Origin: Fidelibacterota bacterium
GTDB taxonomy: Bacteria; Fidelibacterota; Marinisomatia; SCGC-AAA003-L08; D37C17
Direction: 5' to 3'
Length of the DNA: 32,776 nucleotides
NCBI GenBank assembly: GCA_030748955.1
Contig: JASMKZ010000014.1
Coordinates: 1-32,776, forward strand
Shown piece by piece: positions 2,841 through 31,687 of this stretch. How positions within the stretch are numbered: the stretch's first letter is position 1; each line of letters begins with the position of its first letter. The notes under the pieces were generated by a model. It did not search any database. It was not told the origin of the DNA and saw only the letters and a program-made list of their open reading frames with translations. A program made the translations under genes and the position numbers.

Positions 2841-3098
2841 ATGATTTTTAGAGTACAGATATATAATTTCCTTGAAACAATCAGGCTTGCATTCCAAAAA
2901 CGATTAATTGGCGAAAAGGCAATTGCCAAACTGGAAGATAGATATAATCGACGTGACATCTGTTTCTCCTGTGAATTTAAAAAAGGATATTTTAAAAAAT
3001 ATTACCGTTGTACATCTTGTGAATGTTTAATTATTACAAAACTAATATTCACCACATCTGAATGTCCTGAAGGTAAATGGGGAACATTAGATTATTAA
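2841..3098 (+). CDS. Small Cys-rich, probably zinc-binding protein of unknown function
   Basis: 85 codons, not recognised as a named family. After a basic, helical N-terminus (residues 1-37) there are five cysteines in a zinc-ribbon-like layout: CFSC, then CTSCEC, then CPEGKW near the end. The CxxC...CxxC...C-P-x-G-K-W pattern is reminiscent of small ribbon proteins seen in phage and marine genomes, but that resemblance is from memory. The ATG is preceded at once by TAAGTTTG (2830-2837), which matches the Bacteroidetes -7 box TAnnTTTG, and there is no Shine-Dalgarno sequence. If that box is used the mRNA would be leaderless. It sits alone between a terminator and the next unknown gene. Probably a real gene because the Cys pattern is so ordered. 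Confidence 0.65.
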   Translation: MIFRVQIYNFLETIRLAFQKRLIGEKAIAKLEDRYNRRDICFSCEFKKGYFKKYYRCTSCECLIITKLIFTTSECPEGKWGTLDY

Positions 3099-3185
3099 AT
3101 TTGGATAAATTAACCTTCCATACAAATATTTAACCTGTTTAACTTCACCACAATATTTTTTAACAAACTGACATAATTAATATAA

Positions 3186-4047: not shown

Positions 4048-7000
4048 ATGGCTGATTCAAAAATATTTAATCCAGTAGATAATAAGGTTGATTTTGTCCA
4101 GATTGAGCATGACATGCTTGATAAATGGAATAGAGAAGATACTTTTAATCAATTAAGAAAAAAGAACGCTGAGGGTAAGCCCTGGTCGTTTCTCGATGGA
4201 CCTATTACTGCAAATAATCCTATGGGTGTTCATCATGCATGGGGTCGTACTTTAAAAGATATTTTCCAACGCTTTCATGCAATGAAAGGTAGAGATTTAA
4301 GATATCAAAATGGGTTTGATTGTCAGGGGTTATGGGTTGAAATTGAAGTAGAAAAAGAATTGGGTTTTAAATCGAAGAGAGACGTAGAAAAATATGGTTT
4401 AGAAAATTTTGTAAATAAATGCAAAGAAAGAGTGCTGAAGTATTCTACAATTCAATCTGAACAGTCAAAGCGATTGGGGTATTGGATGGATTGGGATAAT
4501 TCCTACTTTACTATGTCTGATGAAAATAATTATACTATTTGGGCATTCCTCAAAAAGTTATATGAAGATGGGAAAATTTATAAGGGTACAGATGTTGTTC
4601 CCTGGTCTGGTCGTTCGGGAACCTCCTATTCCCAAATGGAAATTATTGAAGGTAGAAAACTTGTAGCACACACGTCGGTATTTGTGCGATTCCCTATAAA
4701 AAATAAGCATAATGAATATATATTGGTATGGACAACAACTCCCTGGACCCTTACTTCAAATGTGGCTGCTGCCGTTAATGTAGACTTAGATTATATAAAA
4801 ATAAAAGCTACCGACGGCGCATTCTATTATTTTGCAAAAGAGAATCTTGAATTTCAACGCCTTGATAAACAATTTAAAGAAAAAAAGCAATGGATTGATG
4901 GTGTGCCGAAATTAAAAACAATTGCTCAAATATTTAAAGAGCGAGGTGGATATGAAGTAATAGGCACAATTAAGGGTGTTGATATGCTGGGATGGGAGTA
5001 TGAAGGGCCTTTTGACGAACTGGAAGCCCAGAGTAAAGTTGGCGGCTATCCATTTGTAGATAAAGCATTAAAAGTTGATGGAAAAACTGGTATTTCCTGT
5101 CATCGCATTATTGATGGTGGAAAAGATAGTATAGGCAGTGATGTGGTAGTGGCTGGCGAAGGTACGGGAATTGTACATACAGCGCCAGGATGTGGTGCAA
5201 TTGATAAGAAAATTGCTCAAAAAGCTGAACTTATTTCAATTGCACCTCTAAATGAAGAATCATGTTATATAGATGGCTTTGGAAAATATAGTGGAAAATG
5301 TGCAACACATCTTGAAACAACCCAGGAAATCATTGCTGATTTAAAGGATAAAGGGTTACTTCTTTATCAAGAGCAGTATCCTCATGTTTATCCTCATTGT
5401 TGGCGTTCAGGAGATGAATTGGTTTTTCGAATCGTTGATGAATGGTATATCAATATGGATTGGCGAGATAAAATTAAAAATCTGGTAAAAGATATTCAAT
5501 GGATTCCCGAGTGGGGTCATGATAGAGAAATGGAATGGCTTGAAAATATGGGAGATTGGATGATTTCCAAAAAAAGATTTTGGGGATTGGCTCTTCCAAT
5601 TTGGAAATTCGAAGATGATTCATTTTATGTTGTTGGTTCTAAAGAAGAACTTAAAAAATTAGCTGTTGAAGGATGGGATGAGTTTGAAGGTAAGAGCCCT
5701 CATCGCCCATGGATTGATAAGGTGAAAATAAAGCATCCTGAAACGGGACTTATTGGTACTCGTATTCCTGATGTGGGGAACCCATGGCTTGATGCAGGTA
5801 TTGTACCCTATTCTACCTTTCATTATAATTCTGATAAAGATTATTGGAAAAAGTGGTTTCCGGCTGATTTTGTAGTTGAATGTTTGCCCGGACAATTCCG
5901 CAATTGGTTCTACTCATTATTGGCTCTTTCTACGGTAATGGAGGAAAAAGCTCCCTTCAAAACTTTATTAGGGCATGCGTTGGTGAAAGATGAAACAGGC
6001 CGTGATATGCATAAATCATGGGGTAATGCAATTTGGTTTGATGATGCTGCAGAAAAGATGGGAGTTGATGTTATGCGTTGGATGTATGCCAGTCAAAACC
6101 CTGAACATAATTTATTATTTGGATATGGTATCGCAGATGAGGTGAGAAAACAATTAATTACATTATGGAATACGTATTCATTTTTTGTAACCTACGCAAA
6201 TTTGGATGGGTTTGACCCTTCAGCGAAAATAAAAAAAGAGACTCTTAGAAAGTCAGACCGATGGATCCTTGCAAAAACCAATAAATTTATCGAAACGGCT
6301 GAAAAACATTATAATTCTTTTCAAGTATTTCAGCTTATGGCAGAGGCGACCCGATTATTGGATGATTTATCTAACTGGTACGTAAGGAGAAATCGTCGAC
6401 GATTTTGGAAATCAGAAAATGACTCTGATAAAACGGCTGCATATTCAACACTTTATCATGTTTTAATTAACTTTGTAAAAGTTATTGCGCCAATTGTTCC
6501 TTTTGTTAGCGACAAAATTTATGGTAATTTAGTATCAGGGAACAATGAGACTAATTTTGATAGTGTGCATCTCTGTGATTTTCCAGTCGTTGATCCGAGT
6601 GATATTGACGAGAATGTATTGAATGAGATTGATGTGGTAATTCAAATTGTCAGTTTAAGTAGATCTGCTAGAAATAAAGCAAATATTAAAATTAGGCAGC
6701 CATTGTCTGAACTTGCTCTTTTTGCAATTGATGATATCCAAAAAATTGCAGAAAATAATAAGGCTGAAATTTTAGAAGAATTGAATATTAAGGAGTTAAA
6801 TTTTGTAGAAAAAGAATCTGATTTGGTACAATATAATGTAAAGCCTGATTTTCCAACGCTTGGGCAAAAATATGGAAAAGATATTGGACGGATCACTACT
6901 TATTTAAAAAGTGTTGATTCTCAAGAACTTGTACAAAAAGTTAAAAAAATGAATTCAGTTATTATTGCAGGTAAAGATGGGGATTTAGAAATATTACCTG

Positions 7001-26069: not shown

Positions 26070-26085
26070 TGTGATGCAAATCACA
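26070..26085. promoter_or_regulatory. CRP/FNR-family operator before the PQQ-type dehydrogenase
   Basis: TGTGATGCAAATCACA is a perfect match to the E. coli CRP consensus TGTGA-N6-TCACA. A TATAAC -10-like box lies at 26125-26130, which would put the operator near -60, the usual class I activator position. The regulator gene is not in the window. Confidence 0.7.
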
Positions 26086-28414: not shown

Positions 28415-28828
28415 ATGGGCATGCAGAGTATTGCTGACTATTCTCAACATTATGAGCTTAAAACCCGTTGGAAAGATATAGATTCATTTGGGCATGTAAA
28501 TAATGCAGTATTTCTCACCTATATTGAAGATGCCCGCATTATGTATTTTAAGAGGTGGAATGTTACAGAAAAGAAAAGATCTCTTATAGTAGCTTCAATA
28601 AAAATAGACTATTTAAGGCAGATAGTACATCCATCAGACTTGATTGTGGGCCAAAAAATATCTCGAATTGGGAATAGTAGCTTTGATATTCAATCTGCCA
28701 TATTCCTTAATAATGATTCTAAGCCAGCTGCCAATTCGGTAGTCTCTTGTGTTTGTTTTGATTATCAGCAAAATAAATCCGTTCCCGTATACGATGAAAT
28801 TAAAGCTGATTTTCAACTTGATCAATAG
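28415..28828 (+). CDS. Acyl-CoA thioesterase, 4HBT hotdog family
   Basis: 137 residues, a single hotdog domain. The signature DIDSFGHVNNAVFLTYIEDAR (21-41) holds the catalytic Asp and the HVNN motif of 4-hydroxybenzoyl-CoA/YbgC-type thioesterases. These hydrolyse acyl-CoA or acyl-ACP thioesters. The start codon follows the HMA gene's stop directly (TAAATG), so it is translationally coupled to a metal-binding protein, an unusual pairing with no obvious functional logic. M3 is an alternative start two codons in. Confidence 0.88.
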   Translation: MGMQSIADYSQHYELKTRWKDIDSFGHVNNAVFLTYIEDARIMYFKRWNVTEKKRSLIVASIKIDYLRQIVHPSDLIVGQKISRIGNSSFDIQSAIFLNNDSKPAANSVVSCVCFDYQQNKSVPVYDEIKADFQLDQ

Positions 28829-28893: not shown

Positions 28894-28917
28894 TATTTGT
28901 GGCATAAGTCACAAATA
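28894..28917. promoter_or_regulatory. Upstream CRP/FNR-like operator of the 28.9 kb gap
   Basis: Perfect 8-bp inverted repeat TATTTGTG / CACAAATA with an 8-base spacer, containing a TGTG-N8-CACA core. Its centre lies about 63 bases before the start site predicted from the -10 box at 28957, the class I activator distance. Confidence 0.65.
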
Positions 28918-28936
28918 CCTTCCCGATAATTGTCAA

Positions 28937-28952
28937 TGTGACAAGTATCACT
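28937..28952. promoter_or_regulatory. Second CRP/FNR-like operator, next to the -10 box
   Basis: TGTGACAAGTATCACT fits TGTGA-N6-TCACA with one mismatch. The same stretch also holds TTGTCA-ATG-TGACAA (28930-28944). It lies over the -35/spacer region of the predicted promoter, where binding could repress or provide class II activation. Confidence 0.6.
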
Positions 28953-28956
28953 CGTC

Positions 28957-28962
28957 TAATAT
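28957..28962 (+). promoter_or_regulatory. -10 box TAATAT
   Basis: TAATAT is near the sigma-70 consensus and lies between the second operator and the small ORF. A transcript would start near 28969, leaving a leader of about 11 bases that contains the Shine-Dalgarno sequence. Confidence 0.4.
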
Positions 28963-28979
28963 TCAAGAGGAGATACATT

Positions 28980-29078
28980 ATGCTTGATCTAGTTATTCAT
29001 CATGATAATTTTGTTCCTGCACTGGAACATTTACGCGAAGGTCCCAAACGGCGGTCATGCAACTCTCCTCCTGTATGA
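28980..29078 (+). CDS. Candidate small ORF (32 codons) with strong ribosome-binding site
   Basis: An ATG at 28980 follows GAGGAGA (28967-28973) at ideal spacing, the best ribosome-binding site in the window by complementarity. The peptide begins MLDLVIHHDNFVPALEHLRE and ends RRSCNSPPV at a TGA. I do not recognise it. Its last codons lie inside a hairpin. The known neighbours mostly lack Shine-Dalgarno sequences, which makes this one stand out. It may be a translated regulatory peptide or part of a dual-function RNA. No similar peptide is present elsewhere in the window. Confidence 0.45.
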   Translation: MLDLVIHHDNFVPALEHLREGPKRRSCNSPPV

Positions 29079-29082
29079 CCGC
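29051..29082 (+). ncRNA. Hairpin with anti-Shine-Dalgarno loop; candidate small RNA 3' element
   Basis: Arms GCGGTCATGCA (29051-29061) and TGTATGACCGC (29072-29082) pair over 11 bp with one G-U. The 10-base loop, ACTCTCCTCC, includes TCTCCTC, which is fully complementary to the GAGGAGA Shine-Dalgarno sequence 90 bases upstream. The following bases are TTCCTTATT, only a weak T tract. The transcript from about 28969 to 29090 would be about 120 nt. Confidence 0.5.
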
Positions 29083-29132
29083 TTCCTTATTAATACATAA
29101 ATCAATACATTATATACATGTAAATTAGTCCT

Positions 29133-31232
29133 GTGAAATTCCTTCCATATTTTTCTACATCTTTTTTAATAATTCTATTTAATTTGGCATGCCATACTAT
29201 GCCAAAGGGTGAAATTTCAAACTCTCAGTATGTTAGGCATAATCCACTCATTTACTCAAAAAATCAAAATATCGATTTTGCGATTATTAATGAAGATAAT
29301 ATTGAAAATGCCACTGAGTATGTACTGAGAGAGGCAGATGTAATTTTATCTGAAATAATAGCCGTGCCAACTTCAAAGCGTACTTTTGCAAATACTCTCT
29401 TAAGGTTAGATGATTTATATAATACAGTATCAAAGGTTTCAGGCCCTCTTGAGCTATTAGCGTCTGTGCATCCAAATAGAAAAATCAGGGATATATCTGA
29501 TGAGTCAATATTGATTATTCAAAGGTATTTTGTTGAATTATCTGCAAATGAAGCATTGTATGAGGTAGTAGATCAATTTTCAACTTCAAAACAGGCCCAT
29601 GAATTGCCCATTAACCAGCAAAGATTTTTAGAAAGTGAACTGCGGGATTTTCAACATAGTGGTCTTGGTTTATCGGAGTATGATCGTGAAAAACTAAAGC
29701 GTATTCAAAACAGAATTTCTGAATTGAGTATACAGTTTGAAAATAATATTTCTTCTTATTCAGATACATTATTTATTCCACATAGTATGATTGCAGGGCT
29801 CCCTGATGATTACAAAGATAACCATCTCCAGGATGATGGAAAATACGCTATTGATCTTTCCTACCCCTCATTTTACCCATTTATGGAACATGCAGAATCA
29901 GACTCTCTGCGAAAATTATTACGATATATGTTTTTAAATAAGGGAATGCCTCAAAATGTGTCAATATTAAGTGAAATACTTGCCAATCGTAAATCTCTAT
30001 CAGCATTGTTGAATTACCCTTCATTCTCTGCGCTGATTATTGATCAGGGAATGGCAAAATCAACAGAAGCAGTATGGGCATTTGAACGAGATTTAATTGA
30101 GAAAATTCAACCAAAAGCAAATTGGGATACTGATCAATTATTGCAAATCAAATATGATGCTATAGAAGAAAATGATAAAATAATAACTGACTGGCAGAAA
30201 GATTATTATGAGAATCAACTTTTACTAGATAGGCACAGAGTAGATTCTGAACAGATGAAACAGTATTTTCAAGTAGATAATGTTATAGAAGGTTTATTTG
30301 CCATATCCAGCCTGTTGTTTGATATAAAATTTCGTGAGATAGAAAGCCCATCTGTATGGCATTCTGATGTTAGAATGTTTGAGCTGAAAGAGAAATCTGA
30401 CAATTCTTTAGTTGGATATTTTTATTTAGATTTATATCCACGTGAAAATAAGTATCAGCATGCCGCGGCATTTTCTATTGTTAGTGGTAAGAAAATAAAC
30501 TCTGATTACCAGCATCCGATAACATGTTTAGTGTGTAATTTCCCACCACCTGGGAGAAATACTCCAGCTTTATTGAAACATGAAGATGTTGAGACATTTT
30601 TTCATGAATTTGGTCATTTACTACATGATTTGCTCACAACTTCAGAATTATACAGCCAATCAGGTACATCGGTAGCTATGGATTTTGTAGAAGCTCCCTC
30701 ACAAATGCTTGAGAACTGGGTGTGGAATAAAGAATCGTTAAGCATTTTTGCAACCCATTATAAAACAAATGAAATTATTCCAGATTCACTTATAAATAGA
30801 ATGATTAAAGCGCGGAATATTCAGTCTGGAAATAATTTACTACAGCAAATATTTTATGGCATGTTGGACTTGACACTGCATGGACAGTTTGATTCATCCA
30901 ATGTAAAATCCACCACAGAAATTATGAGTGAGCTGCAAAACTCTATCACAAATTATGACTATATGGAAGGCACCCATATGCAGGCTTCATTTGATCATTT
31001 ATTAGATTATGGAGCGTCTTATTATGGCTATCTTTGGTCGGAAGTTTTTGCTGCAGATATGTATTCTGTTTTTGAAAGAGAAGGACTATTAAATCAGGAA
31101 GTTGGTCTAAGGTTTAGAAAAACTATTCTTGAAAAAGGTGGTACAGAAAACCCAATGAATCTTGTAAGAGCATTTCTTAGAAGAGAGCCTAACAGTAAAG
31201 CCTTCCTAAAAAAACAGGGTATTGTTGAATAA
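29133..31232 (+). CDS. M3-family zinc metallopeptidase (oligopeptidase), lipoprotein
   Basis: 699 residues from a GTG start. The N-terminus is a lipoprotein signal (TSFLIILFNLAC, lipobox Cys about residue 20), so the protein is probably anchored in the cell envelope rather than cytoplasmic like most M3 oligopeptidases. The zinc site is complete: H491-E492-F-G-H495 in FFHEFGHLLHD and the third ligand E520 in DFVEAPSQ. The C-terminal YYGYLWSEVFAADMY is also typical. These enzymes trim short peptides, which would fit downstream of the secreted C25 protease at the left edge. No Shine-Dalgarno sequence is seen before the GTG. The upstream gap holds the two operators and the small ORF; the M3 gene may be controlled by them or have its own promoter. 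Confidence 0.93.
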   Translation: MKFLPYFSTSFLIILFNLACHTMPKGEISNSQYVRHNPLIYSKNQNIDFAIINEDNIENATEYVLREADVILSEIIAVPTSKRTFANTLLRLDDLYNTVSKVSGPLELLASVHPNRKIRDISDESILIIQRYFVELSANEALYEVVDQFSTSKQAHELPINQQRFLESELRDFQHSGLGLSEYDREKLKRIQNRISELSIQFENNISSYSDTLFIPHSMIAGLPDDYKDNHLQDDGKYAIDLSYPSFYPFMEHAESDSLRKLLRYMFLNKGMPQNVSILSEILANRKSLSALLNYPSFSALIIDQGMAKSTEAVWAFERDLIEKIQPKANWDTDQLLQIKYDAIEENDKIITDWQKDYYENQLLLDRHRVDSEQMKQYFQVDNVIEGLFAISSLLFDIKFREIESPSVWHSDVRMFELKEKSDNSLVGYFYLDLYPRENKYQHAAAFSIVSGKKINSDYQHPITCLVCNFPPPGRNTPALLKHEDVETFFHEFGHLLHDLLTTSELYSQSGTSVAMDFVEAPSQMLENWVWNKESLSIFATHYKTNEIIPDSLINRMIKARNIQSGNNLLQQIFYGMLDLTLHGQFDSSNVKSTTEIMSELQNSITNYDYMEGTHMQASFDHLLDYGASYYGYLWSEVFAADMYSVFEREGLLNQEVGLRFRKTILEKGGTENPMNLVRAFLRREPNSKAFLKKQGIVE

Positions 31233-31447: not shown

Positions 31448-31463
31448 TGTGATATTTGTCACT
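31448..31463. promoter_or_regulatory. CRP/FNR-like operator in the 31.2-31.7 kb gap
   Basis: TGTGATATTTGTCACT matches TGTGA-N6-TCACA with one mismatch, the same TCACT variant as at 28937. It could act rightward on the short ORFs at 31.5-31.7 kb or leftward on the small coiled-coil ORF. Confidence 0.6.
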
Positions 31464-31513
31464 TTTCAAGGTAGATTTTGATAATTGCAGGCCCGGGGCA
31501 GACAACCATTCAC

Positions 31514-31687
31514 GAGGAGGAGAATGCCGTTTTTCAGTTATCATCTACCTGCCGAGCCTAATTTGTTGTCGGCAATATAGAGGAGAGAAACAGTATCCAT
31601 CAAAATCTTAGTTGTAACAGTTTGTTAAGAGGAGGAATGTTAATATTATTAGCTTTAATTTCTAAACAATTCATAATTGTAATGTAA
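31514..31687 (+). other. Cluster of GAGGAG motifs with two minimal ORFs
   Basis: Three Shine-Dalgarno-like purine tracts occur in about 120 bases: GAGGAGGAGA (31514-31523), AGAGGAGAG (31579-31587) and AGAGGAGG (31628-31635). ORFs of 18 codons (31524-31580, MPFFSYHLPAEPNLLSAI) and 16 codons (31637-31687) follow the first and third. Spacing to their ATGs is short (3 and 1 bases), so translation is doubtful. The tracts match the anti-Shine-Dalgarno loop at 29063-29071. Otherwise the gap 31375-31705 shows only a weak TGCCGA/TCGGCA stem near 31.55 kb. Confidence 0.4.

Follow-up and report, generated by a model that had tools for sequence, protein, structure and literature searches.

The question raised by this locus is what a compact intergenic segment, combining two regulator palindromes with a hairpin whose loop is the complement of a Shine-Dalgarno sequence, might do. 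The segment lies in a 32,776-nt stretch of DNA (the window; contig C55 of a 1.79 Mb genome in 355 contigs), between a thioesterase gene (28415-28828) and a gene for an M3 oligopeptidase, with HMA and heavy-metal-binding-domain proteins encoded upstream. A sequence-only reading had listed the two palindromes, a -10 box, the motif GAGGAGA, a 32-codon ORF and the hairpin, and had proposed either a CRP/FNR-controlled dual-function small RNA or a self-inhibiting leader peptide. All of these elements are present at the positions assigned to them, although not all of them matter: a CRP-type-controlled small RNA, with a loop that is under selection and could reach other mRNAs, is the part of the proposal that is supported, and its dual-function and leader-peptide versions are not.

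Comparison of the window genome (G000) with its relatives G001, G003 and G005, i.e. four species of one genus, formed the basis of the analysis. A homologous segment was found in three of the five other species of the genus, with identities of 78% (G003), 74% (G001) and 94% over the 3' 71 nt (G005). In the four-species alignment, mean pairwise identity amounted to 0.85 at operator 1, 0.83 at operator 2 and 0.91 over 28963-28979, followed by 0.56 over 28980-29019, 0.86 over 29020-29047, 0.90 in the hairpin and 0.89 in the tail, with flanking values of 0.39 just upstream of the operators and 0.60 on the other side. The stretches of high identity are both CRP-type operators, the GAGGAGATAC(A/T)TT block and 29020-29092. 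The last of these is the conserved core of a putative RNA on the + strand, designated RNA-A (0.86-0.90 vs 0.56-0.60 on either side), which consists of a 5' arm starting with ACTGGAACATTTACGC, a hairpin and a U-rich tail. The hairpin comprises 12 pairs (arms 29050-29061 and 29072-29083, + strand; 11 pairs and a closing G.U) and encloses the anti-Shine-Dalgarno (aSD) loop ACUCUCCUCC at 29062-29071, in which UCUCCUCC(UGU) is invariant in the four species. It is part of the lowest-energy fold of every species, and a weak second hairpin that the fold of the window sequence shows on the 5' side (GUUCC/GGAAC) was dismissed, as it is disrupted in the relatives. Both the arms and the loop, on whose retention the sequence-only reading had made its case depend, are kept in the relatives; with an identity of 0.89-0.90 across hairpin, loop and tail and a covarying stem, they go beyond chance.

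A covariance search, as recommended in that reading, was performed on 23 genomes of the family with a model termed R1 and recovered RNA-A in four of them with 98-103 bits (four sequences, all from one genus), together with diverged sibling hairpins described below. A second model, R2, was built from nine hairpins of RNA-A and the siblings RNA-B and RNA-C. In R2, 99.1% of the cells are paired and the covariation score reaches 0.477, compared with 0.333 +/- 0.036 after shuffling (0/500 shuffles); three pairs are changed on both sides, a count that is less striking when taken alone (28/500 shuffles). The 19 non-Watson-Crick cells, which are not independent events, are 18 G.U and one A-C on the + strand, and the RNA-C of G002 as well as RNA-D contribute further G.U cells. 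As 18 of these 19 cells are G.U on the + strand and would be A.C on the other, the + strand is the functional one.

Upstream of the core lie CRP-type operator 1 (core TGTGGCATAAGTCACA at 28898-28913, + strand, within the palindrome 28894-28917 centred at 28905.5), which is kept in the four species, and operator 2 (TGTGACAAGTATCACT, 28937-28952, + strand), which reads GTGA-N6-TCAC in all four. Across the genome, 25 places (36 strand-wise matches) fit the pattern TGTGR-N6-TCACW, compared with 2+2 for the reversed pattern that served as control, and the RNA-A locus has two of these places 39 bp apart; these counts, together with the four-species identity, lift both palindromes above chance. Nearly all sites are intergenic and many lie upstream of secreted-protein genes. 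One further perfect palindrome of this type, TGTGATGCAAATCACA at 26070-26085, is found 84 bp upstream of a glucose/sorbosone dehydrogenase-domain gene (26169). The genome encodes a single PF13545 protein (L151), with a cyclic-nucleotide-binding domain and a RETVSR recognition helix, which among the named models scores nearer to CRP than to FNR, yet below their curated cut-offs. For this reason the sites are called CRP-type and the ligand is left unspecified.

The 5' end of RNA-A is ambiguous among three candidate -10 boxes. The TAATAT proposed earlier (28957-28962, + strand) reads GAATAT, GTGTAT and TATATT in the relatives, is not conserved in any of the three and occurs no more than by chance; the transcript start near 28969 that had been placed downstream depends on this box, and two better-placed candidates exist. 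One of them falls into the conserved block TTCAAGAGGAGATACATT (28962-28979, + strand), which includes GAGGAGA and resembles the GAGTAGATAATAT -10 region of RNA-B. The block is more likely to be a promoter (-10 candidate GATACW/TACWTT) than a ribosome-binding site; the candidate, at 28972-28979, is conserved and would place operator 2 at about -41. The third candidate is GATAAT at 29004-29009 (+ strand); two relatives have AATAAT at the corresponding offset, and the remaining one has TATAAT displaced by 6. It is the closest to consensus and would start transcription at ~29016, with operator 2 at -71.5 and an RNA-A of ~77 nt, similar to RNA-B and RNA-C. With either 28972-28979 or 29004-29009 in use as the -10 box, GAGGAGA falls outside the RNA, and we consider it probably to be located upstream of the transcript. 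We also observed that several CRP-type sites have, immediately on their 3' side, TTCAAG and then a GAGG/GTAG-like stretch (window 31463-31480 and 28962-28975; L135), possibly representing a promoter motif of the lineage. At the opposite end, the RNA-A hairpin is followed by a weak U-tract (UUCCUUAUU), which leaves termination at this hairpin uncertain, and the U-tracts of RNA-B and RNA-C are good.

An aSD-loop RNA (at least one sibling) was found in all six species of the genus examined, with each RNA represented by at most four sequences and RNA-D by five; in the covariance model the siblings have diverged, covarying stems and a common CUCCUCC loop. RNA-B was detected as a weaker R1 match in G004 and G001, where a different hairpin carries the same loop motif, and a third copy is present in G003; it has the CRP-type site TGTGATATAGGTCACA and a GATAAT placed for a start 62.5 bp from the site centre. 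The RNA-B hairpin in turn led to RNA-C, an aSD-loop hairpin with U-tract on the minus strand (L003 475-523, L004 332-382, L093 1501-1554), which in G005 and G001 is found upstream of the HMA gene and oriented opposite to it; an additional RNA-C-like hairpin occurs in G002. Neither RNA-B nor RNA-C was found in the window genome, whose assembly is an incomplete MAG. There, CTCCTCC-N-TGT occurs at 15 places, and a proper fold around the loop was obtained only at RNA-D (loop UCUUUUUCCUCCUCCUCCUAGU; G000:C177 ~4690-4790, minus strand, L080 1440-1545; also L113-L116), for which the hairpin counts as independent evidence and the loop does not, as it was found by motif search and subsequent folding. 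RNA-D is located directly 3' of a gene that we take to be a ribonucleotide reductase from reading its protein sequence rather than from a family search, precedes a strong intrinsic terminator and is kept in five of the six species. No CRP-type site is visible near RNA-C or RNA-D. A selenocysteine tRNA match (67.6 bits; L046 547-637, G001:C9), situated ~0.9 kb from RNA-B, suggests that the lineage makes selenoproteins.

Beyond the genus, a pattern scan of 84,980 genomes returned three Neomarinimicrobiota contigs and four matches in Rhodobacteraceae, Paenibacillus and Allobaculum, which were taken as chance (~2 expected by estimate); no match was obtained in viral contigs. A class-wide R2 search yielded nothing convincing outside the genus, and the matches in G103, G164 and G050 were set aside as generic hairpins.

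Candidate targets were sought through the loop complement. The sequence AGGAGGAGA-ATG is rare before genuine genes in the genus. In G001, G002 and G005 it precedes the gene of a secreted protein with a lamin-tail domain, which in two of these three species has a CRP-type site at a distance of 193-195 bp upstream; in G000 it precedes the gene of a Cys-rich secreted protein, for which this distance is 229 bp. The remaining matches are mainly reverse strands of the small RNAs, gene-internal sites or sites with no long ORF, and no clear enrichment over a control pattern was observed. Predicted duplexes between the loop and the lamin-tail-domain and Cys-rich starts range from -16.8 to -18.5 kcal/mol, and those of all candidate targets including element S (see below) from -14.8 to -18.5 kcal/mol, compared with 61 other gene starts, for which the median is -4.3 and the best value -11.9 kcal/mol. 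These energies are not independent evidence because the targets were found by searching for the loop complement; such predicted values show the sites to be exceptional, not to be targets. Just 5' of the lamin-tail-domain Shine-Dalgarno sequence, a palindromic hairpin (ATTCCCGCTATAGCGGGAAT and variants) is present in G001, G002 and G005 (L152, L160, L163).

A further candidate, termed element S (window 31448-31640; L169 ~990-1100, L170 ~1005-1115, L171 ~2959-3175), is located 2.4 kb downstream of RNA-A at the same locus in four species. It comprises a CRP-type site (TGTGATATTTGTCACT, 31448-31463, + strand), kept in the four species, and GAGGAGGAGA (31514-31523), a perfect loop complement followed by the ATG of an 18-codon ORF (together 31514-31580, + strand). 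Within it, GAGGAGGAG is invariant in the four species, and G001 carries GAGGAGGAGC-ATG. The duplex with the RNA-A loop is predicted at -17.2 kcal/mol. Element S contains further GAGGAG motifs and, in the relatives, a short ORF beginning MPFLRSHPPTGPN, which is frame-shifted in the window; it is a candidate target, sponge or small gene.

Taken together, we regard it as probable, with some reservation, that RNA-A is a + strand small RNA under CRP-type control that blocks strong Shine-Dalgarno sites in trans, along with its siblings. Transcription would be governed by the single CRP-type regulator of the genome through the two operators, its binding being predicted from the sequence, and would release a free RNA of ~77 or ~107 nt, depending on the -10 box used, ending in the 12-bp hairpin. 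The loop UCUCCUCC would mimic the 3' end of the 16S rRNA, a likeness that we assume from the general bacterial anti-SD sequence. Pairing in trans with the unusually strong Shine-Dalgarno sites (AGGAGGAGA) would then block translation initiation of these mRNAs and repress them, and RNA-B, RNA-C and RNA-D, which carry this loop on stems of their own, would bring other inputs into the same type of regulation. More tentatively, and with considerable doubt, these parts may be joined into a closed circuit centred on the CRP-type regulator, which would drive the sibling aSD RNAs, the AGGAGGAGA secreted-protein genes and the GAGGAGGAGA-bearing element S (as target or sponge), with the aSD mimic as a selective switch and the RNA-D copy tying the circuit to DNA synthesis. 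In such a circuit, the mimic would be selective and not a general inhibitor because typical starts match the loop poorly.

Several other readings of the locus were weighed against a trans-acting RNA-A. That pairing between the loop and the GAGGAGA of the segment itself blocks the 32-codon ORF, in a dual-function RNA or a leader peptide as formerly proposed, now appears hardly tenable. The complementarity is perfect over 7 nt in the window (predicted duplex -11.9 kcal/mol), and GAGGAGA is found in G001 and G003 as well, but it is replaced by AAAGTAGA in G005, where the loop is unchanged and the break is not compensated; moreover, RNA-B and RNA-C have no comparable partner, and GAGGAGA may be untranscribed. 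The ORF itself (28980-29078, + strand) was judged not to be a gene: its ATG at 28980 is replaced by TAT, ATA and GTA in the three relatives (L002-L004), its stop is lost in G003 (L002), substitutions in its frame are mostly non-synonymous (dN 0.24-0.40 vs dS 0.10-0.39), and coding constraint, sought in the four-species alignment, was not found, with dN/dS near 1. An extended frame of 46 codons, starting at a GTG within operator 2, is open in all four species and was likewise rejected, having dN ~ dS and no conserved start. Because the 32-codon ORF is unsupported, the dual-function RNA and the self-inhibiting leader peptide lose their support as well; neither this ORF nor, as a structural claim, the pairing of the loop with GAGGAGA goes beyond chance, and RNA-A holds no conserved internal ORF of the kind that marks a dual-function small RNA. 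Also very unlikely is a functional minus strand, on which AGGAGGAGAGTTGCATG would supply a short ORF, enclosed in the hairpin, with its ribosome-binding site and start. A good Shine-Dalgarno-to-ATG spacing and a near-consensus TTCACA-17-TATAAT promoter at 29137-29109 would suit such a gene; however, the promoter is lost in the relatives and belongs to a pattern with 12 matches vs 13.8 expected by shuffling, a stop ends the ORF after 4 codons in both G003 and G005, the G001 version is different, RNA-C has no ATG at that position, and 18 cells of stem changes would be A.C mismatches.

The remaining two readings accept a + strand hairpin and assign it another role. It could act as terminator or attenuator in a CRP-controlled 5' leader that precedes the M3 oligopeptidase gene (29133-31232), where transcription would end or continue into the gene, with a loop that has no role in trans or acts on nearby Shine-Dalgarno sequences only. 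M3 begins 50 bp after the hairpin and in the same orientation, CRP-type sites precede both, and M3 is also the next gene downstream in G001 and G003. In G005, however, the association with the downstream gene that an attenuator leader should display across species breaks down: M3 is reduced to a C-terminal remnant (L004 1594-1700, G005:C11), and the RNA-A core beside it is kept with 94% identity over 71 nt. As it persists where M3 is mostly lost, RNA-A is an independent unit, which speaks against a leader role; the siblings, moreover, occur in other contexts, one of them in a 3'UTR, and an attenuator needs no invariant CUCCUCC loop across diverged stems. We consider a leader role unlikely. Titration as the main function, with control of secreted proteins being secondary, is more improbable still: RNA-A would titrate another factor or be titrated by one, for example through element S acting as a sponge or through GGA-rich partners that bind a CsrA-type protein. 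The conservation of element S, with its CRP-type site and perfectly loop-complementary GAGGAGGAGA, in the same four species speaks for this, whereas the element may be no more than a small gene whose ribosome-binding site is strong, and its alignment displays no visible structural conservation.

Regarding known families, Rfam returned nothing at the gathering threshold for the window; a search of seven loci relaxed to E up to 1 gave no more than tRNAs and sub-threshold matches, without CyaR, in agreement with the earlier remark that no named RNA family fits. RNA-A does display the mark of trans-acting aSD small RNAs, a CCUCC-type motif that is both conserved and single-stranded within a structured RNA free of coding constraint, and RNA-A and its siblings were filed as a new family of this known functional class. 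The closest parallels are ar14/NfeR1 of alphaproteobacteria (RF02344), which likewise carry an aSD motif (CCUCCUCCC vs CUCCUCC here) in the loops of variable stems and of which NfeR1 was shown to block translation initiation (PMC10746234). In ar14, however, three aSD hairpins, each with CCUCCUCCC unpaired, are contained in one RNA, whereas RNA-A and its siblings have one aSD hairpin each in separate genes; NfeR1 is under LsrB/NtrC and RNA-A stands behind CRP-type sites. RF02344 did not match RNA-A and reached 27.7 bits at the RNA-D locus vs a gathering score of 58.8. The rhizobial AbcR1/AbcR2 also are sibling RNAs with an aSD motif (CUCCUCCC) in a hairpin loop (PMC8844928), but possess a second aSD motif between stem-loops and differ from RNA-A in phylum, sequence and control. 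NmsRA/NmsRB of Neisseria share with the RNAs described here the sibling arrangement and conserved UC-rich anti-SD loops with complementarity to the Shine-Dalgarno sequences of their targets (PMC5362039), and differ from RNA-A in their tandem genes, stringent-response control and three stem-loops. If our reading is correct, aSD-loop regulation with diverged-stem siblings, known in alphaproteobacteria and Neisseria, extends to a deep, uncultured marine lineage, and should strong Shine-Dalgarno sites truly be rare there, the lineage would offer a clean case for the question of how aSD mimics achieve specificity. A search of the open-access literature found no paper on Marinimicrobia small RNAs, only three incidental co-mentions.

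In its proposed control, RNA-A is comparable to the enterobacterial CyaR (RyeE), which is CRP-controlled and pairs with the Shine-Dalgarno sequence of the surface-protein mRNA ompX (PMC11795201). CyaR is Hfq-dependent, and RNA-A has no Rfam match to it; the likeness lies in putative CRP-type control and in the predicted Shine-Dalgarno targets of secreted-protein genes. With a pair of conserved CRP-type sites at the locus and one CRP-like protein encoded in the genome, the promoter of RNA-A may be activated in this way. A CRP-type regulator would control aSD-loop RNAs in Ca. Neomarinimicrobiota, for which testable targets are now defined.
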